The notes under the pieces are model-generated. The model saw only the letters and a program-made list of their open reading frames with translations, was not told where the DNA came from and ran no database searches. The position numbers and the translations under genes are program-made. Below, piece by piece: positions 4,246 to 21,579 of a stretch of 26,772 nt of DNA; within the stretch, counting starts at the first letter, position 1, and each line of letters opens with the position of its first letter. Origin of the DNA: a virus; the IMG/VR virus record IMGVR_UViG_3300021171_000039, positions 1 through 26,772 of that record. One strand, written 5' to 3'.

Positions 4246-5079
4246 ATGATGGAAAATTATGAAGTGCATCCAGAAATAGCAGCAGAGCTAGCAGAAGCAG
4301 CTAAAAGAGGGAAACCTATTCAACAAGCTCAGCCAACTCCAGCTCCGGCACCTCAACCAGTGCAACCACAAGTTGAACAAATGGAACAAGAACAAGCGCA
4401 AGAGCAAACTCCTCAACCTATTAATGATCCAGCTCCTGAGTCTGAGGAAAGTGGCTACAAAGTTAATATGAGGATAAAAGCCCTTAGGTTAGCCAAGGAA
4501 AAGGCTGAAAGAGAACGTGATGATATACTAAGATTAGCACAGATGAATAATGCACTAAATAAACCACAAGAAGAAAAACAGGTTACCAAGTCACGTAATA
4601 GATTAAGACCTGAGGAACTCGTAGATGGAAGTCATGTTAATGAACTTGATGATGAATTACAACAATTAAAACAACAATTATTAAGGCAACAACAGCAATC
4701 TTATAATGAAAATTCAAAACTGCGCTTAAAGGCAAAGTTTAATGACTTTGAACAGGTAGTAAACCAAGAGACCATTGAAATGTTACAGGTTCTTCAACCT
4801 GAAATAGCTCAAACTTTAAATTCAACTCAAGACATTTATGCAGCTGGAGTTACAGCTTATAACATTATTAAGAACTTGGGATTGAAACCTGAAGCAAATT
4901 ATGAATCTGATATAAAACGAATACAGACTAATGCAGTAAAGCCAAAACCAATGGTTAGTATAAATCCTCAGCAAGGAGAATCTGCCTTATCTCAGGCCAA
5001 TGCTTTTGCTAATGGATTGACTCCAGAGTTAAAAGATCAACTCTATAAAGAGATGCAGGCAGCTAGAAGAAATTATTGA
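4246..5079 (+). CDS. Probable scaffolding protein
   Basis: The gene encodes 277 residues; an ATG at 4249 is also possible, both served by AAAGGA (4236-4241). Residues about 20-70 form a Pro/Gln/Ala-rich flexible linker. Residues about 75-165 are highly charged and predicted coiled coil, with Lys/Glu-rich and Gln-rich heptad-like stretches. The C-terminus ends in a helix with basic residues (KEMQAARRNY). A disordered start, a coiled-coil body and a C-terminal basic helix directly upstream of the coat gene is the usual layout of a phage scaffolding protein, which templates procapsid assembly and is then lost. No sequence motif proves the family, so the call rests on architecture and position. 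Confidence 0.6.
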   Translation: MMENYEVHPEIAAELAEAAKRGKPIQQAQPTPAPAPQPVQPQVEQMEQEQAQEQTPQPINDPAPESEESGYKVNMRIKALRLAKEKAERERDDILRLAQMNNALNKPQEEKQVTKSRNRLRPEELVDGSHVNELDDELQQLKQQLLRQQQQSYNENSKLRLKAKFNDFEQVVNQETIEMLQVLQPEIAQTLNSTQDIYAAGVTAYNIIKNLGLKPEANYESDIKRIQTNAVKPKPMVSINPQQGESALSQANAFANGLTPELKDQLYKEMQAARRNY

Positions 5080-5108
5080 TCTCTTCCGTCGCTTTTAGTA
5101 CGCTCGAC

Positions 5109-5217
5109 TGTGCCCGTGGATTAAAGTATATTTTTTTATGATTTAATATGTTGATTTTGAGCTCTCCGTTTTTTATTTAGGTACATTTTTTATAATTTTT
5201 CTTAATCTACGGGCACA
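5109..5217. repeat. 16-bp inverted repeat enclosing a 77-base AT-rich loop
   Basis: TGTGCCCGTGGATTAA (5109-5124) and TTAATCTACGGGCACA (5202-5217) are inverted repeats with one difference, which is a G-U pair in plus-strand RNA. The 77 bases between are extremely AT-rich with several T-runs. The pair sits between the scaffold stop (5079) and the stop of the minus-strand gene (5222), and ATTTTT follows directly on the plus strand. It may be a bidirectional terminator with an unusually long loop, the frame of a small RNA, or the scar of an insertion. No ORF was seen inside. Confidence 0.55.
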
Positions 5218-5221
5218 ATTT

Positions 5222-5527
5222 TTAATCTTCTTTAGATTTCTTTAAGCTTTTGATAGCAATTCGGATATCATCCAATACATCAGGTAATGATTCTGAAAGG
5301 TTTTTAAAGTTAGAATTCATATCTATAAGTTTATCATTAATCAATTCAGTATAATCTTTCATATCACTTAGATAATCATGCATTCCACATAAGTTTCTTA
5401 TAATAAGCCAGTCTTTTAATACATTCATTTTTAACTTATCTTTTTCTGTAATAGCTTCTTCATCTTCTATTACTTTATTAATTAAACGTTCGTATATTAT
5501 TTCTTTGTCTTTGTAATCTGAAATCAT
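5222..5527 (-). CDS. Minus-strand acidic helical protein of unknown function (101 aa)
   Basis: The start at 5527 has AAGGAG seven bases upstream and gives 101 residues; the open frame extends 24 codons further without a better signal. The product is hydrophilic, mostly helical and acidic, with a KLKMNVLKDWLIIRNLCGMH stretch near residues 30-50 and a Lys-rich end (KSLKKSKED). No family was recognised. It is a lone minus-strand gene inserted between scaffold and coat, both read on the plus strand, with its own inverted-repeat structure at the 3' end. This arrangement suits an accessory 'moron' gene expressed separately from the virion genes. Confidence 0.65.
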   Translation of the reverse strand: MISDYKDKEIIYERLINKVIEDEEAITEKDKLKMNVLKDWLIIRNLCGMHDYLSDMKDYTELINDKLIDMNSNFKNLSESLPDVLDDIRIAIKSLKKSKED

Positions 5528-5567
5528 AAGATACTCCTTAGTACTATTGCTTTTGAAAATAAATATT

Positions 5568-5595
5568 AGTATATCTATTTGTAGCGTAATATGAA
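5568..5595 (-). promoter_or_regulatory. Possible promoter of the minus-strand gene at 5527
   Basis: Read on the minus strand, TTCATA (5595-5590) and TATACT (5573-5568) are 16 bases apart and lie about 40 bases upstream of the start codon. The -10 match is good and the -35 match only fair. In AT-rich DNA such pairs occur by chance. Confidence 0.3.
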
Positions 5596-5615
5596 GCATC
5601 GCTAACTTCTAAATT

Positions 5616-5692
5616 TAGACGTAATGAAAGCTCGTCTACTTCAAAAAAGGACGTAAAATCTGTTTTAAGATTCGTCATCTTATCGTTATAAA
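5616..5692 (+). promoter_or_regulatory. Possible coat-gene promoter and nearby inverted repeat
   Basis: TTAAGA (5665-5670) and TATAAA (5687-5692) are 16 bases apart and about 30 bases upstream of the major capsid start, whose ribosome binding site is AAGGAG (5709-5714). A separate coat promoter would make sense because a minus-strand gene intervenes. About 30 bases further upstream, TAGACG (5616-5621) and CGTCTA (5633-5638) form a 6-bp inverted repeat that could be an operator. Both assignments are weak. Confidence 0.3.
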
Positions 5693-5721
5693 TCATTTTT
5701 CTTATCTTAAGGAGAATAGAT

Positions 5722-6669
5722 ATGGCGATAACTACGACAAGTACTTTGCCAGCACCTATTCAAGCTAGTTTTAGCTACAAACTCTTAAGTGTTCCAGTAC
5801 CTGATTTTATCTACCGCATACCTGCTATGAAGAAGCAGATGCCTAGAAACGGTGGTACAACACTAAGAATGAGAAGATATAATCCATTAAACACAGCAAT
5901 GGTTCCACTTGGAAATTCTGGTATCACACCTCCAGCTCAAAATCTAACAGCGTTGGACATTGATGCTAAGATCTCCTTTTATGGAACATATATTCAGTTA
6001 AATGAACAAGTTACATTACAAAACCAAGATCCAGTATTGAACGAAGCAGCAGCACGTTTAGGCGTATGTCTTCGTCAAACAGAAGATCAACTTACACGTG
6101 ATATGTTAGCGGCTACAGCTGCTTTCATTAACTGTACAGGTGGCGTAAATGGTGACGTTCCTACTGAATTGACACGTTCTGATGTTGATCTATTGATTGC
6201 GACATTGAAAAATAACAATGCACAAACAATTATGGACAACATTGAAGGTGAAGATAAATATGCAACATCACCAATTCGTGATGCGTACTTTATGCTAGCA
6301 TCTACAGGCCTTATCGGTGACTTTGAAGCCGTAGCAGGTTTTGTAGCTAAAGCACAATATGCAGCACCTACCAATGCTCTGCCATCAGAATGGGGTGCAA
6401 TTAGCAACCTCAGAATCTTGGTATCTAGCATAGGTTCAATTAGCCCTAATGCATCATCTTTAGGCAATACCGTGTATAACAACATGGTAGTCGGAATGGA
6501 AGCTTATGCCATAATACAGCAAGACGGATACTCCGCTTCCTTCATCTATCGACCACCTATCTATGATGGTCCATTGGCTCTTAATGCGTCTGTTGGTTGG
6601 AAAGCAGCTTTTGTACCTAGAATCACAAATGATCTATGGGTACTTAACTCAAGATGCACACACTCATAA
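5722..6669 (+). CDS. Major capsid protein, N4-gp56 type
   Basis: The 315-residue product is the likely coat protein that builds the icosahedral shell. It follows the pattern of the N4-gp56 family: an N-terminal LPAPIQASFSYKLL segment, a PRNGGTTLRMRRYNPL segment (about 40-55), where family members read k..Gkt...rr..pl, then PLGNSGITPPAQNLT, FYGTYIQLNEQVTLQNQDPV and an LGVCLRQTEDQLTRDMLAAT helix (about 110-135). The family is expected to have an HK97 fold. It is a little shorter than N4 gp56 (about 400 residues) but within the family range. AAGGAG lies upstream. The gene follows the scaffold candidate and precedes the connector genes, as usual for the coat. Confidence 0.85.
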   Translation: MAITTTSTLPAPIQASFSYKLLSVPVPDFIYRIPAMKKQMPRNGGTTLRMRRYNPLNTAMVPLGNSGITPPAQNLTALDIDAKISFYGTYIQLNEQVTLQNQDPVLNEAAARLGVCLRQTEDQLTRDMLAATAAFINCTGGVNGDVPTELTRSDVDLLIATLKNNNAQTIMDNIEGEDKYATSPIRDAYFMLASTGLIGDFEAVAGFVAKAQYAAPTNALPSEWGAISNLRILVSSIGSISPNASSLGNTVYNNMVVGMEAYAIIQQDGYSASFIYRPPIYDGPLALNASVGWKAAFVPRITNDLWVLNSRCTHS

Positions 6670-6680
6670 GGAGATAGCCC

Positions 6681-7880
6681 ATGGATGGTACAATATTATG
6701 TCAAGGTTCATTTATAGCTAACTCAACTGGATTATCAAATCCAAATGCAGGTAATGCTTCTATTGGTCAGGCAAATGCCCAACTTATAGTAATACCAAGC
6801 AATGTTGATTGGCTATCAGTATGGAACTATACAAGATATGGCACAGTTGGAACAACCGGTGCTTATTTCAATGGAACAGCTAACGCTTCAGTAGGTGTAG
6901 AATTCTACTGGCAACGTGGCATGGCTCCAGGAACAGGTATAGTTAAATACTATGGTGCAGCATCTCAAGTGCTTGATGGTGACACATTAGTTTCAGGTGG
7001 TTTCACACTTTATGATCCATCTGGACAAAGTGCAGGCTCATTGCCTCTATTAGGCAATGCAGTTGCAACAACAGCTTCTACTAACGTAACAAGACCAGTT
7101 GTTTCCACAGGAAACACAGCAGGCGTTATAGTTGGTTCAGTTGTTCGTTTAAGCAATACAGCTCAAACAGATGTTAATGGTGTTGATTTTGTAGTTGGTG
7201 CAGTTACTGCAAATACCAGCTTTACATTATTGACAGCATCTAATCCTCTAGCTAATGCTCCAGGAGCAATTGGTGGTGCAGGATTCTATAGATTAGTTAA
7301 TACTGACGGACTATTTTATCCAAAGCGCAGATATGTAGTTAATATTACAAAGGCAGTTAATGCTCAAGTGTCTACATCTGTTGCTCATAGATATGTAGCA
7401 GGTCAAGCAGTAAGATTCGAAATTCCAGCCGTATCAGGAATGGTTCAATTGAATTCTACTGTGTTTAACAATTATTTAACTGCAACTGTTGTAACAGTCG
7501 TTGATGATTATAATTTCACAATTAATATCGATACAACTGCATTTACAACATTTACTTGGCCAACAATTGCACAACAGCCAAGTTCATTCCCTGAAGTTAA
7601 TCCGGTTGGTGAAGATTCTGCTTCGGCTTTAATGTCGATTCAAGCTCAAACACCGATATATCAAGGTCAGCAAATCTACAACACTAACGTTGGCGTCCTT
7701 TCAGATTCTACAGTTAACACTGGGTTTCTTGGAATGTTGCTAGGCAATGGTGGAAATGGAAATGCTCTAACCACACCGATATTAGGACCTTCTGGTGCTA
7801 TATCTTGGTCTGCTGGTAACGTTGCTACAGGTGATACAGTTTACTGGGTAGCTGGTAAATCATCACTTGGCGGACTCTAA
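6681..7880 (+). CDS. Virion structural protein with FCCH-like beta modules
   Basis: The 399-residue product has an AAGGAG site (6669-6674) upstream and lies 11 bases behind the coat gene. It is rich in Thr, Ser, Asn, Gly and Val, with almost no charged residues, typical of secreted or virion beta proteins. Residues about 219-295 (VNITKAVNAQVSTSVAHRYV onward to TFTWPTI) resemble the small beta module that databases label ubiquitin-activating-enzyme E1 FCCH-like in phage proteins; the wording there is structural and does not imply ubiquitin chemistry. A weaker copy may occupy residues about 135-190 (VNGVDFVVGAV). Position suggests a head decoration or connector protein. A terminator follows at 7898. 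Confidence 0.7.
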   Translation: MDGTILCQGSFIANSTGLSNPNAGNASIGQANAQLIVIPSNVDWLSVWNYTRYGTVGTTGAYFNGTANASVGVEFYWQRGMAPGTGIVKYYGAASQVLDGDTLVSGGFTLYDPSGQSAGSLPLLGNAVATTASTNVTRPVVSTGNTAGVIVGSVVRLSNTAQTDVNGVDFVVGAVTANTSFTLLTASNPLANAPGAIGGAGFYRLVNTDGLFYPKRRYVVNITKAVNAQVSTSVAHRYVAGQAVRFEIPAVSGMVQLNSTVFNNYLTATVVTVVDDYNFTINIDTTAFTTFTWPTIAQQPSSFPEVNPVGEDSASALMSIQAQTPIYQGQQIYNTNVGVLSDSTVNTGFLGMLLGNGGNGNALTTPILGPSGAISWSAGNVATGDTVYWVAGKSSLGGL

Positions 7881-7897
7881 GTAATTAATGGACTTAT

Positions 7898-7930
7898 GGG
7901 AGAGGAATGTAATGACCCCCTCTCCCTTTT
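7898..7930 (+). terminator. Intrinsic terminator after coat operon
   Basis: GGGAGAGG (7898-7905) pairs perfectly with CCTCTCCC (7919-7926) across a 13-base loop and is followed by TTTT (7927-7930). It would end or attenuate the coat transcript before the gene at 7947. An in-frame ATG at 7896 lies inside this hairpin, which supports the later start at 7947. Confidence 0.7.
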
Positions 7931-7946
7931 AATTAAAGGAATAAAT

Positions 7947-8372
7947 ATGTCATCACCAAAAAATTTGACCCCTAAGCAATCAACAGGTAAAAAACTTACC
8001 CCTGAAGAAATAGAGAAAATGAGAGTAAAGGATCGTACTCTTGTTAGAGGAAAATATCATTTTCATGAATGCCCAGGCGGCATGATCCAATTTCCATTTA
8101 AGAAATATGCTGCCGATCCAATGGAATGGTACAAGATGACAGATGGAGAAGTTCATACTATTCCATTAGGAGTAGCTAAACATTTAACAGATAATTGCTG
8201 GTATCCTGAATATTCTTATAGAAGAACTGAAGGCCAGGATCTTCAACAGGTTACTAAGAAAATACCTAGAATGAGTTTCCAAAGTATGGAATTTAGCGAT
8301 TATGATGATATAAGAGATATTTCCGGTGAAAGAGTTAATACAGCTGTATATTATCCAGGAAGATCAGTATGA
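7947..8372 (+). CDS. Hypothetical connector-region protein (141 aa)
   Basis: The start at 7947 has AAAGGA (7935-7940) upstream; an earlier in-frame ATG would run through the terminator. The 141-residue product is hydrophilic. It has a basic start (MSSPKNLTPKQSTGKKLTPE), a YHFHECPGGMIQFPFKKY segment (about 38-55), HTIPLGVAKHLTDNCWYPEY (about 72-92) and a C-terminal SFQSMEFSDYDDI segment. I do not recognise a named family, but compact aromatic-rich sequences of this kind occur near connector genes. Its stop overlaps the next start (ATGA at 8369-8372), so the two proteins are probably made together. Confidence 0.75.
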   Translation: MSSPKNLTPKQSTGKKLTPEEIEKMRVKDRTLVRGKYHFHECPGGMIQFPFKKYAADPMEWYKMTDGEVHTIPLGVAKHLTDNCWYPEYSYRRTEGQDLQQVTKKIPRMSFQSMEFSDYDDIRDISGERVNTAVYYPGRSV

Positions 8373-8740
8373 TCGTAGCCCAACCATTTCCTACTTATCA
8401 ACCAAAAATGTGTGGAATACTAAGTATAACCAATGCCAACCCGGCATTGGTTACCACCACACTCGATGGTGTTAATCCGGGAAATCACCAATACATAGAT
8501 GGTTTAATAATTAGAATAGATATTGCACCTGGATATGGAATGGGTCAAATAAATCAGCAATTTGCGCCAATAACAGTCGTTAGTCCTACTCAGTTTACAA
8601 TAGCGATAGATACTACAATGTATGATATTTTTTCTTTTCCTGTGGCATATCCATTAACCTCGCAATATTCACAAAGTGTTCCCTTTGCAGAACTTAATGG
8701 TGAGATTATTGGAGCAGTGCAGAATGTTTTACCATATTAA
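8369..8740 (+). CDS. Small structural protein consisting of one FCCH-like module
   Basis: The gene overlaps the previous one by four bases (ATGA) and encodes 123 residues. Nearly the whole chain, from GILSITNANPALVTTTL to FTIAIDTTMYDIFSF, looks like one copy of the beta module also seen in the products of 6681-7880 and 11736-14180: an i..itna.pavvtt start, a GQINQQFAPITVVSPTQFTI segment and a dTt.y..fsfP end. It is probably a virion component of the connector or tail; its exact role is unknown. Confidence 0.7.
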   Translation: MIVAQPFPTYQPKMCGILSITNANPALVTTTLDGVNPGNHQYIDGLIIRIDIAPGYGMGQINQQFAPITVVSPTQFTIAIDTTMYDIFSFPVAYPLTSQYSQSVPFAELNGEIIGAVQNVLPY

Positions 8741-8791
8741 TTAGATATCTATTGTTTATATATTTTTATTATAGGAATATTAAATATATAT

Positions 8792-8805
8792 AAGGAGATA
8801 TCAAG
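8792..8805 (+). promoter_or_regulatory. Ribosome binding site placed before an AAG codon
   Basis: AAGGAGATATC is followed by AAG GCT TTA ACT at 8803. The AGGAG (8793-8797) is five bases from the AAG, exactly where an ATG stands in neighbouring genes, and GCT as second codon is typical of a start. In frame, a TAA stop lies at 8791-8793, and only ATC (8800) or TTG (8827) are other near candidates. The simplest reading is an ATG-to-AAG change, or an error in the sequence. Confidence 0.6.
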
Positions 8806-9267
8806 GCTTTAACTTCTACAATTCTTTTGGATATTCCAAACAAAACACAAACATTAACTTTTTTTCAAGGCGTTACTCAAGTTGATCAGATAACTTTTTC
8901 AAATAATGCCATCACGATGGGAGCTACATCAGGATTTGATTTATCCAAAACTGATTGTTTGTTATATAATAGTTTGCTTCAGACTTGGATAAATGCACTT
9001 GAATTGAACTTTCCATCAGTATTTATAAGCACTAATAAGATTTGGCCACAAAGTCTATTTAGTGTAAATATAGTTTCAATAACTGGCTTGCTTAGAGTTC
9101 TTTATACACAAACATCTTTAGGTAATTCTATTTATGCCACGGATTATCTTATTGTTGCTCAAACAGTTATTTATGCCGCTAGGGCACAAACTATTATAAC
9201 TTTGCAAGAATTCTTTATGATGCAAATAATGATACAACAATTCACTAACCAGGTAGCTCTTAATTAA
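8803..9267 (+). CDS. Structural protein of unknown function with non-canonical (AAG) expected start
   Basis: The open frame encodes about 154 residues if read from 8803 (x-ALTSTILLDIPNKTQTLTF) or 146 from the TTG at 8827. The strong ribosome binding site and the coding look of residues 2-9 favour 8803, although its codon is AAG; the TTG has no binding site. The product is low in charge, rich in Thr, Ser, Asn, Gln and hydrophobic residues, and lacks a signal peptide; a TDYLIVAQTVIYAARAQTII stretch near the C-terminus may be an amphipathic helix. Function is unknown, and the surrounding connector genes suggest a virion part. Its stop overlaps the stop of the minus-strand gene at 9264 by three bases. 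Confidence 0.65.
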   Translation, partial: KALTSTILLDIPNKTQTLTFFQGVTQVDQITFSNNAITMGATSGFDLSKTDCLLYNSLLQTWINALELNFPSVFISTNKIWPQSLFSVNIVSITGLLRVLYTQTSLGNSIYATDYLIVAQTVIYAARAQTIITLQEFFMMQIMIQQFTNQVALN

Positions 9268-9515
9268 TCCATTTCGATCTGTATTTTGTTTATATTGTCT
9301 TCAATTAAAGTTAGATTACCTGTAATATCTTCTATTCCTGTTGAAATATCTAATACATAATCAGCTATATTGCTTAGATTCATAGTATCAATATAACCTT
9401 TAAGTAAAGTTATTTTCTGGGAAAGTCGATCTCGGGAGTCTTGATCCAAGAGTGTTCCACTAAAATAATAATCTAAAAGTTCATTATACATTTGAATTGC
9501 TTTTGAAAGTTCCAT
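9264..9515 (-). CDS. Minus-strand helical hypothetical protein (83 aa)
   Basis: The gene encodes 83 residues beginning MELSKAIQMYNELLDYYFSG, with AGGAGAAG upstream on the minus strand. The product is acidic and almost wholly helical, perhaps a short coiled coil in the C-terminal half (GIEDITGNLTLIEDNINKIQ). No family was recognised. It lies ten bases downstream of the zinc-ribbon gene at 9526-9711, so the two form a small minus-strand operon inside the plus-strand tail module. Confidence 0.6.
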   Translation of the reverse strand: MELSKAIQMYNELLDYYFSGTLLDQDSRDRLSQKITLLKGYIDTMNLSNIADYVLDISTGIEDITGNLTLIEDNINKIQIEMD

Positions 9516-9525
9516 TAAACTTCTC

Positions 9526-9711
9526 CTATCTAATTTTTGGATAATTGCATCTACATATAGCTAAATCTCCCTTATATCTAGATGTGAATTTTTTGGTTAG
9601 TATATTTAGTTTGCAATGTCCACATATCGGTATTTGATACGAACCGGCAGCGGTTGTCTTTTTTTTTCGAAATACAGAATTAGCACCACTATTTATTCTT
9701 CTTCTTTTCAT
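9526..9711 (-). CDS. Small zinc-ribbon-like basic protein (61 aa)
   Basis: The start at 9711 has AGAAGG six bases upstream; the open frame extends 27 codons further, but those encode an unrelated hydrophobic stretch and lack a well-placed binding site. The 61-residue product is strongly basic at the N-terminus (MKRRRINSG, FRKKK) and carries C30, H32, C33, C53 and C55, giving CGHC and CRC pairs suited to binding one zinc ion. Such small zinc ribbons often bind nucleic acid or another protein, but no family was recognised. First gene of a two-gene minus-strand cassette with 9264-9515. Confidence 0.6.
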   Translation of the reverse strand: MKRRRINSGANSVFRKKKTTAAGSYQIPICGHCKLNILTKKFTSRYKGDLAICRCNYPKIR

Positions 9712-9782
9712 TTTATTCCTTCTATTGATTTCGAACATTCCTCTTAGTATAACTAGGAATATAAAAAAGATTAGGAGATAGA

Positions 9783-10901
9783 ATGCCAGCAACCTTAGCG
9801 GATATAGAAAAAAAGGTTAGGTTACTTACAAGATTGCCAAGTACTGCTCAATTATCTCAAGCAGATTTAGATAATTATATAAATACATTTATTCTTTACG
9901 ATTTTCCAGAGCAATTAAGGACTTTTAATTTACTGAAACCGTTCTCCTTTTACACTAACCCAGGTCAAGATGTTTACGACACTAACATTTTGTCCTTCGC
10001 AGGGGCGACCAACAATATCTTATATAACTTTCAAAACTTGTATTTAACTGTACATGAGCCAGTATATATTGCTGGTTTCCCTGCGTTATATACACAAGAT
10101 AGACAACAATTCTTTGGCATATATCCCATAATTAATAGTATTTCTTCTATAGGTGTAACAGGAAATGGTACAGCAGGACCATTCACAGGTGTAATAAATA
10201 CTCAACAATCTATAGTGCCACCTGGAACAATGCAGAATATAGGCTTATTACAAAATAACGTTTTATTTTCTGCTATAGGAACTCCAGGAACAGGCGAAGC
10301 AGAAGGAATGGCTTTAGTAGACGTGCCTGTAGTTGATGGAGGAACAGGATTTAAACTTAATATAGGTAATCTTTATGATCCAAACTCATTGGCTTATAGA
10401 ACAGCATTAGTGAATCCTCCAACGGTAGTTGATCCAAATAACAATATAAATTATTTAACTGGTGTATTTACTATTAATTTCTCAATGAATACTTTGGCAG
10501 GAACTCCAATTAATAGTCAAACAGTTCCACAACAATATGCATTACCTCAATCTCTAATGTTTCATAATAATCAATTTACAGTAAGGCCAGTTCCGGATCA
10601 GACTTATGCAGTTAACTTTGAAGTTTTTGTAAGACCAACCCAATTAATATTAGCAGGCGATGTACCAAATCTTGATGAATACTGGCAATACATTGCTTAT
10701 GGCGCAGCAATTAAGGTTCTGCAGGATAAAATGGATCTAGATTCAGTTAATTTAATTATGCCTGAATTTAAAGTACAAGAAAGATTATGTTTGCGTAGAA
10801 CTATAGTTCAATATACAAATACCAGAACGGCTACTATTTACACTGAAAACAATGGTTTAGGTGGTGGTTGGACATGGGGTTATGGATCAGGTTACCAATA
10901 G
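9783..10901 (+). CDS. Probable neck / head-tail adaptor protein
   Basis: The 372-residue product starts behind TTAGGAG (9771-9777). The N-terminus (KVRLLTRLPSTAQLSQADLD onward, then YINTFILYDFPEQLR) and the C-terminal helical part (VRPVPDQTYAVNFEVF, then LDEYWQYIAYGAAIKVLQDK) together resemble the adaptor layer of short-tailed phages (tail tubular protein A or P22 gp4-like), in which an N-terminal and a C-terminal helix pair with the portal and a beta insertion lies between. The beta insertion here is large (about 70-260). Position after connector genes and before the nozzle-like protein fits. Similarity is judged by eye, so the family is not certain. A run of C-ending codons occurs near 9941-10015. 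Confidence 0.6.
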   Translation: MPATLADIEKKVRLLTRLPSTAQLSQADLDNYINTFILYDFPEQLRTFNLLKPFSFYTNPGQDVYDTNILSFAGATNNILYNFQNLYLTVHEPVYIAGFPALYTQDRQQFFGIYPIINSISSIGVTGNGTAGPFTGVINTQQSIVPPGTMQNIGLLQNNVLFSAIGTPGTGEAEGMALVDVPVVDGGTGFKLNIGNLYDPNSLAYRTALVNPPTVVDPNNNINYLTGVFTINFSMNTLAGTPINSQTVPQQYALPQSLMFHNNQFTVRPVPDQTYAVNFEVFVRPTQLILAGDVPNLDEYWQYIAYGAAIKVLQDKMDLDSVNLIMPEFKVQERLCLRRTIVQYTNTRTATIYTENNGLGGGWTWGYGSGYQ

Positions 10902-10908
10902 GAGAAGC

Positions 10909-11130
10909 ATGTTTTTAAAGATTTTATCATATTTTGGATATTGTGAACTTTGCTCAATAGATTCAACACCTTTGTTGGAAAAGAGTACTCAATGTTTATA
11001 CACAGAAATGTGTGACATGTCAGATGAAGATTTTTATAATTTGCGTAGCCTTATTTCAATGGCACATGATACTAGAAAAGCTAACGTAGAATACATAAAA
11101 GAAAAGGAAAAAGATGCCTTATCAAAATAA
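10909..11130 (+). CDS. Small Cys-containing hypothetical protein (73 aa)
   Basis: The start at 10909 has AGGAG four to five bases upstream; the open frame extends further, but within the previous gene. The 73-residue product begins MFLKILSYFGYCELC and contains C12, C15, C29 and C35, the first two as a CxxC pair. The second half is a charged helix (AHDTRKANVEYIKEKEKDA). It may bind metal or carry a disulfide, but no family was recognised. The last 17 bases overlap the next gene. Confidence 0.6.
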   Translation: MFLKILSYFGYCELCSIDSTPLLEKSTQCLYTEMCDMSDEDFYNLRSLISMAHDTRKANVEYIKEKEKDALSK

Positions 11131-11734
11131 TATTCCGTTAGCTCCCGATCAATTATCTAGATCACAAGGTGATATTAACGGGAATTTTCAGATCTTAGGT
11201 GCTATAGGTGGTATTCCAGGCGTTAATAATAGCGCAGGGATCAACACAGCCCCAGGAGCAGGCTTTAATTATTTATTTTTAAATGCTGGAGGTGCTAACC
11301 CACCAGCAGGCTCAGTGTTTGCTAATAGTAATGCTTTATTTTCATCACCTATTGCAGCAGTAAATGAATTATTCGTTAACAAGAATAATCAGGCAGGTGC
11401 TGTACAAATACCATTTACAAAATCAATTTTAAGTACAGCTGTTGCACCAGCTAATGGATTACCTGGATGGACATACTTACCTTCAGGAATAATTATAAAA
11501 TGGGGAATAATTGCAGTACCAAATATAGCAGCAGGAGGAACGGCTAACTTTGATGCTACGGTACCATTTACTAGATTTTTTGCAGCAACCTTAGGAAATG
11601 GTAACTCAGGAGGTGCAAATTATTCATCTCAAATATCTGCGTTAAGTACTGTATCAATAACTGTAGTAAATAGAGGAACTGCTTTAGGAACTTACGTGGC
11701 TGCCAATGTATATTATTGCGTAATAGGATACTAA
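11114..11734 (+). CDS. Tail protein with gp53-like C-terminal fibre domain
   Basis: The gene encodes 206 residues, with AAAAGGA upstream inside the preceding gene. The first 100 residues are Gly/Ala/Asn-rich. The C-terminal 90 residues (GWTYLPSGIIIKWGIIAVPN, then AAGGTANFDATVPFTRFFAA, ending YYCVIGY) follow the pattern of the gp53-like domain at the ends of phage tail fibres (lP.Gli.qWG......G....fp..F........), a trimeric beta fold that often binds receptors or caps a fibre. It is short for a fibre and lies among connector genes, so it could be a short tail spike or a structural plug. Confidence 0.6.
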   Translation: MPYQNNIPLAPDQLSRSQGDINGNFQILGAIGGIPGVNNSAGINTAPGAGFNYLFLNAGGANPPAGSVFANSNALFSSPIAAVNELFVNKNNQAGAVQIPFTKSILSTAVAPANGLPGWTYLPSGIIIKWGIIAVPNIAAGGTANFDATVPFTRFFAATLGNGNSGGANYSSQISALSTVSITVVNRGTALGTYVAANVYYCVIGY

Positions 11735-21228: not shown

Positions 21229-21579
21229 ATGTCAAATAATGCAGTAATGGCAGCAACTGAGCCATTAAGATCTTTAGCATTTGGATCAATTTCAGGTGCT
21301 TATGCAGCAGTAGGTACACCTTTCGTTAACCCATGTAGAATTCTGATACTTCAAAATTTTACAGATACCCAAATGTTCTTTTCAGATGATTCAACAGTTT
21401 CAGCAGGTAAATGGACATTGCCTAGCGGAGGCCAACTTATAATAGATTATGAAACCAATAAGACTGAAACAGGTGGAGCTTTAGCCTATCCAATTGGAAC
21501 ACAAATTTATGTAAAGCAGGGAACTGCTCCATCACTTGGTTCTGTTTATGTAGGTGTAACATACGGCAGAAACGGATAA
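21229..21579 (+). CDS. Beta-rich virion protein of unknown function (116 aa)
   Basis: The gene starts behind TAGGAG and encodes 116 residues. A PLRSLAFGSISGAYAAVGTP start leads into NPCRILILQNFTDTQMFFSD and ends in an IGTQIYVKQGTAPSLGSVYV segment. The composition and alternating hydrophobic pattern suggest a small beta sandwich, compatible with a fibre collar or decoration protein. No charge-rich or catalytic motif and no known family recognised. It lies ten bases upstream of the S74 fibre gene. Confidence 0.65.
   Translation: MSNNAVMAATEPLRSLAFGSISGAYAAVGTPFVNPCRILILQNFTDTQMFFSDDSTVSAGKWTLPSGGQLIIDYETNKTETGGALAYPIGTQIYVKQGTAPSLGSVYVGVTYGRNG

Follow-up and report, generated by a model that had tools for sequence, protein, structure and literature searches.

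How is a phage gene to be read when the codon at its expected start is AAG? The question is raised by a stretch of 26,772 nucleotides (IMG/VR virus record IMGVR_UViG_3300021171_000039, here called the window), in which an open reading frame at 8803..9267 carries AAG at 8803..8805. The preliminary description of this DNA regarded it as a structural gene that is silenced by a point change, expressed by re-initiation, started at a TTG further on, or misread in the assembly. Coordinates refer to the window, and features lie on the plus strand unless the minus strand is named.

The start region of the gene

The gene comprises 154 codons including the first (K-ALTSTILLDIPNKTQTL...NQVALN). Its frame reads AAG GCT TTA ACT TCT (A-L-T-S-T...) and stays open up to the TAA at 9265-9267. 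The Shine-Dalgarno sequence (SD) AAGGAG at 8792..8797 is followed by the spacer ATATC (8798-8802) and then by AAG, which confirms the earlier observation of AGGAG five bases before AAG GCT TTA ACT. An in-frame TAA at 8791..8793 closes the frame upstream, as had been described, and there is no ATG or GTG start in frame near 8803. The sole canonical candidate is the TTG at 8827..8829, for which the reported lack of a ribosome-binding site also stands, no SD having been found there. An in-frame ATC at 8800..8802 is a weak alternative start that had been set aside as too close to the site. This judgement is fair, as the ATC lies 2 nt after AAGGAG and the SD-supported starts surveyed in the window have spacings of 4-9 nt. 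Nearly all of the other likely window genes surveyed begin at an ATG or GTG with SD support.

Homologues and the ancestral start codon

Full-length homologues are present in the contigs L003, L120, L121, L125 and L128, and partial homologues in L009 and L007. L003 is ~90% identical to the window over most flanking stretches and its start region reads CCATATTAGGAGATATC ATG GCT TTG ACT TCT, while L120 and L121 (42-43% amino acid identity) read ATG GCT TTA AC(T/A) TCT. The residues A2-L3-T4-S5 that follow the start codon are invariant across the window and these three homologues. The comparison of start sites, which had been proposed as a check, thus places ATG in the 8803 column in three full-length homologues and finds the TTG at 8827 to be the start of none. 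Because L003, L120 and L121 carry ATG at exactly that codon (MALTS...), 8803 is, on this alignment, the ancestral start position, and the window bears a T-to-A change in the start codon. With ATG in the same column of three homologues, the alignment confirms that the AAG observation is real and not a matter of chance.

In L125 (TTAAAAGGAGG CATTT ATC GCA CTC ACT AGT) and L128 (TTAAAAGGGGG TTTATT ATC GCG CTC ATA GCA) the start column is occupied by ATC, and a canonical start codon is absent both upstream and in the next eight codons. The closest pairs by amino acid identity are L120 and L125 (63%), L121 and L128 (69%), and L003 and the window (84%). Each pair consists of one ATG member and one non-ATG member, and the non-canonical start is therefore not conserved among orthologues. 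Since every closest pair is split in this way, about three start-codon changes are implied, within a family known from only six distinct full-length lineages.

As a baseline, 16 other gene families from the fetched contigs were surveyed in a matched way. A start other than ATG, GTG or TTG was found in 2 of the 5 family members outside the window and in 2 of 641 copies of the other families (Fisher p ~3e-4, a value that is indicative, as the copies share kinship). One of the two exceptions may be an alignment artefact. The other is a portal gene (L039:2011-2030, contig IMGVR 3300050821_003793) that has no nearby ATG, GTG or TTG and reads GAGGAG ACGACA ATT TTA TTC CCA, in which an AUU start for an essential gene is likely from the sequence. 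Additionally, ORFs of at least 100 aa were scanned in six contigs (the window, L125, L128, L120, L121 and L018) for a strong SD joined to a non-canonical codon, with no SD-supported canonical start. The signature was convincing for this gene only, in the window, L125 and L128 contigs; a few other ORFs were flagged, without homology support. No phage-encoded initiator tRNA with a matching anticodon was found, the only tRNA being one tRNA-Asn in the L125 contig. The departure from ATG, first noted as a point change, thus appears to be wider and to recur across an accessory gene family of uncultured phages, which seems to be repeatedly tuned down or switched off at its first codon.

The upstream insertion and the predicted hairpin

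The gene upstream (8369..8740) encodes a protein of 123 aa whose matches, to tail proteins and E1_FCCH-like sequences, are weak. Its stop codon in L003, a TAG, overlaps the accessory-gene SD. In the window an AT-rich insertion of 54 bases relative to L003 (8740..8793) separates the end of the upstream gene from GGAG. Since the insertion separates AAG from the upstream stop by 62 nt, whereas stop and SD overlap in L003, the proposed re-initiation is unlikely to be the main route of expression. No match to the insertion was found among the fetched loci, and promoter-like sites are no more frequent in it than in shuffled sequence. Over its final 40 bases (window 8696-8740) the upstream gene departs at many positions from both L003 and L018, two contigs that match one another there. 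This hints that the insertion arrived on a short recombination tract.

A hairpin is predicted at 8744..8802, in which GATATCT (8744-8750) pairs with AGATATC (8796-8802) and TTATATAT (8756-8763) pairs with ATATATAA (8786-8793). It encloses the SD and stops one base short of AAG. The predicted energy is -11.7 kcal/mol and 35 of 1000 dinucleotide shuffles fold equally well, which is moderately unusual for such AT-rich DNA. The predicted cost of opening the ribosome-binding site is ~9.1 kcal/mol in the window vs 4.0-6.1 kcal/mol in the other members.

Shine-Dalgarno strength and expected initiation

The pairing energy with the anti-SD is -11.6 and -11.3 kcal/mol in the ATC members L125 and L128, respectively, which places each SD within the three strongest of the contig that carries it (contig medians about -5.5 to -5.8 kcal/mol). 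The SDs of the ATG members L003, L120 and L121 are weaker than those of the ATC members (-3.5 to -7.3 kcal/mol). In the window the energy is -9.3 kcal/mol vs -7.3 kcal/mol in L003. A strong SD at the right spacing, with the start column 5-6 nt from the SD core, is thus found in the ATC members and in the window, where the SD lies partly inside the predicted hairpin.

In S. aureus, initiation at AUU and AUA is directed by extended SDs and reaches ~10-30% of the level of AUG (PMC13009471). In a reconstituted system, most non-Watson-Crick pairs at the first and second base, including the ANG/CNU series, resulted in essentially no full-length product (PMC10158994); an acylated non-methionine initiator was used, so these results serve as a guide only. 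By analogy, the ATC codons of L125 and L128 probably function as starts, though weak ones. The window copy is at a greater disadvantage than the ATC copies, because of the hairpin and because its AAG is mismatched to the initiator anticodon at the middle base. Its sequence suggests that it is most likely silent or expressed at trace level.

Accessory status, neighbourhood and possible function

The whole gene is missing in L004, L005 and L018, which are ~97% identical to the window on both flanks. The scar in these contigs (TATTAGGAATTTATCTTTAAAATTAATCC) retains AGGA. Because it keeps the L003-like start of the SD together with the 3' end of the gene, the gene was probably deleted there. Among the more distant relatives, the great majority yielded no homologue, and in these an SU10-adaptor-like tail gene (window 9783..10901) closely follows the upstream gene. 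On this distribution the gene is accessory and dispensable. Two minus-strand ORFs lie between the accessory and adaptor genes (window 9264-9792), of which the first is kept in L018 despite the deletion. Another variable accessory site is found before the major capsid gene, where a minus-strand ORF (window 5222-5599) lies in a stretch (5215-5538) that is unmatched in L003.

The accessory protein has no Pfam, PHROGs or PDB match, and no homologues were found in cultured phages, plasmids, or bacterial and archaeal genomes. Two AlphaFold models had pLDDT values of 38-39, a confidence too low to be usable. In L120, L121, L125 and L128 the gene adjoins tail-fibre-like genes. The description of the gene as structural is therefore plausible from its neighbourhood in these four relatives, but finds no match in the domain and structure databases. 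Judged by its position, the protein is probably a minor tail or host-recognition component.

Two further observations concern the tail region of L120. A small tail-module gene of 116 aa (window 21229-21579) has a homologue (~41% amino acid identity) at L120:1564-1902, close to the accessory-family copy of L120, and from this the window and L120 appear to share parts of the tail module. L120 also carries, beside its tail-fibre module, a minus-strand ORF of 302 aa (L120:5244-6152) with a U-box domain (Pfam PF04564, E 2.3e-6), which is unusual for a phage contig. This ORF may belong to a host flank or may hint at a host living within eukaryotes.

Selection and lesions

Between the window and L003 the gene has a dN/dS of 0.195. 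Since the split, nonsynonymous and synonymous changes stand at 11:8 on the window branch and 9:6 on the L003 branch (partial outgroup L009; Fisher p = 1). A search of the window ORF for marks of a pseudogene (stops, frameshifts, relaxed selection) found none. Had the window branch drifted neutrally from its split with the L018 group onward, ~19 nonsynonymous changes would be expected on it, as estimated from the dS of the flanks; because only 11 are seen, the loss, if it is a loss, would be recent.

The position of the lesions was also considered. Possible nonsense changes outnumber inactivating start-codon changes by about 61 to 7, so that the start codon makes up ~10% of the joint target. 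In each of the three affected members the change fell on the start codon, and internal stops are absent from all of them. If these were random single-base losses, the chance of three out of three at the start codon would be ~0.001, or 0.01 for the two members that were not used in the discovery. Random pseudogenisation thus appears to be a poor account of the family. Selection for lower expression acting at the start codon, or the plain use of weak starts, would fit better.

Explanations for the AAG codon

We consider it reasonably probable that a real change from ATG to AAG has left the window copy silent or at trace level, as one case of a family-wide weakening of the start codon in which the ATC members probably retain weak functional starts. 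The ancestral ATG of the accessory gene would have changed to AAG in the window lineage, where the 54-base insertion probably also puts the ribosome-binding site in a hairpin. Pairing of the initiator tRNA with AAG should be very poor, and the window copy would then be mostly or entirely unexpressed, while the ATC members, behind their extended SDs, probably make the protein at a low level. As for the selective reason, the protein may be needed at low copy only or may be costly in some hosts. Among the options first put forward for the window copy, silencing by a point change is the best supported, given the ATG of the homologues, the deletion of the whole gene in close relatives and the ribosome-binding site in the predicted hairpin. 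Against this reading, the window ORF is intact and its branch has no sign of long neutrality (11:8 vs 9:6). The SD of the window is stronger than that of L003, which could be compensation for a weak start that works. The hairpin is only moderately significant, and the family comprises only six full-length lineages.

It is possible, although we think it unlikely, that AAG is a plain and recent pseudogenisation, a chance loss in a dispensable gene that is unrelated to the ATC copies. The deletion of the gene in close relatives would agree with this, as would the insertion and hairpin, which arose on the same lineage as AAG. Such an account requires the start codon to have been lost three times independently, and no other lesion to have arisen, among the six members of the family, set against a baseline of 2 in 641.

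Rather doubtful is the reading in which AAG, or the ATC at 8800, is used at a low rate through AAGGAG so that the output of a low-copy virion protein is deliberately kept down. The intact ORF, the lack of relaxed selection on the window branch, the SD that exceeds that of L003, the extended SDs of the ATC members and the concentration of all three changes in a tenth of the mutational target, with no internal stop, would all suit a working start. AAG, however, mismatches the initiator anticodon at the middle base, where such pairs gave essentially no product (PMC10158994); the hairpin is predicted to lower access to the ribosome-binding site; and close relatives manage without the gene.

An error of assembly or sequencing at 8804 is very improbable. 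A second IMG/VR contig of 6,895 bases (L002) is 100% identical to window 4436-11330, AAG included, and the 54-base insertion accompanies the change in both contigs. A third AAG copy did not turn up when the viral collection was searched by pattern, and L002 might come from the same or a related sample as the window, so that the agreement is possibly not independent. ATC stands at the same codon in two unrelated contigs, and the misreading that had been suggested is on balance unlikely.

We give equally little credence to translation from the TTG at 8827, which would yield a protein of 146 aa. It is the first in-frame canonical start codon, but it lacks an SD, the homologues begin 8 codons earlier, and a canonical start codon is missing from the site in L120, L125 and L128. 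The A-L-T-S residues that are invariant in the window and the ATG members would be lost. A fusion to the upstream gene through frameshifting, readthrough or bypassing is the least credible: in L120 the TAG of the upstream gene is in frame with the start and directly adjoins it, and the frames overlap in L128 and L003, but there is no common arrangement, with two in-frame stops between the genes in L125 and no overlap in L121 and the window, and the upstream genes differ between family members.

Relation to known systems and significance

Non-canonical first codons are known from cellular genes, such as infC and pcnB of E. coli (AUU) and infC (AUA), cvfC1 (AUU) and ccpN (AUA) of S. aureus (PMC9410913; PMC13009471). 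In these genes the first codon keeps expression low, with an extended SD in S. aureus, and L125 and L128 fit this arrangement. Several of the cellular genes have conserved weak starts, whereas the phage family switches among ATG, ATC and AAG, and the AAG of the window mismatches the middle base. A study by Belinky et al. in 2017 followed 61,358 ancestral AUG starts and found, beyond GUG and UUG, 2 switches to CUG and 1 to AUU, counts that are lowered by annotation bias (PMC5622118). Suboptimal starts were paired with stronger SDs there as in the phage family, which in contrast has three non-canonical starts in six members. In its patchy presence and clean deletion from close relatives the gene resembles phage accessory (moron-like) genes and decaying pseudogenes, but in this family the ORFs have stayed intact and it is the first codon that is altered in every case.

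Standard gene callers take ATG, GTG and TTG only, so genes such as this one would be truncated or missed. A bolder proposal, which we put forward tentatively and regard as unlikely, is that the first codon acts as an evolvable volume knob in a host-recognition accessory family, whose flips between ATG and ATC or AAG, with compensating SD strength, would determine how many copies of a minor tail protein are made. If the pattern holds, the family would provide a compact natural series (ATG, ATC and AAG, with matched SDs) for the dosing of a phage accessory virion protein, and a test case for the co-evolution of start-codon and SD strength.
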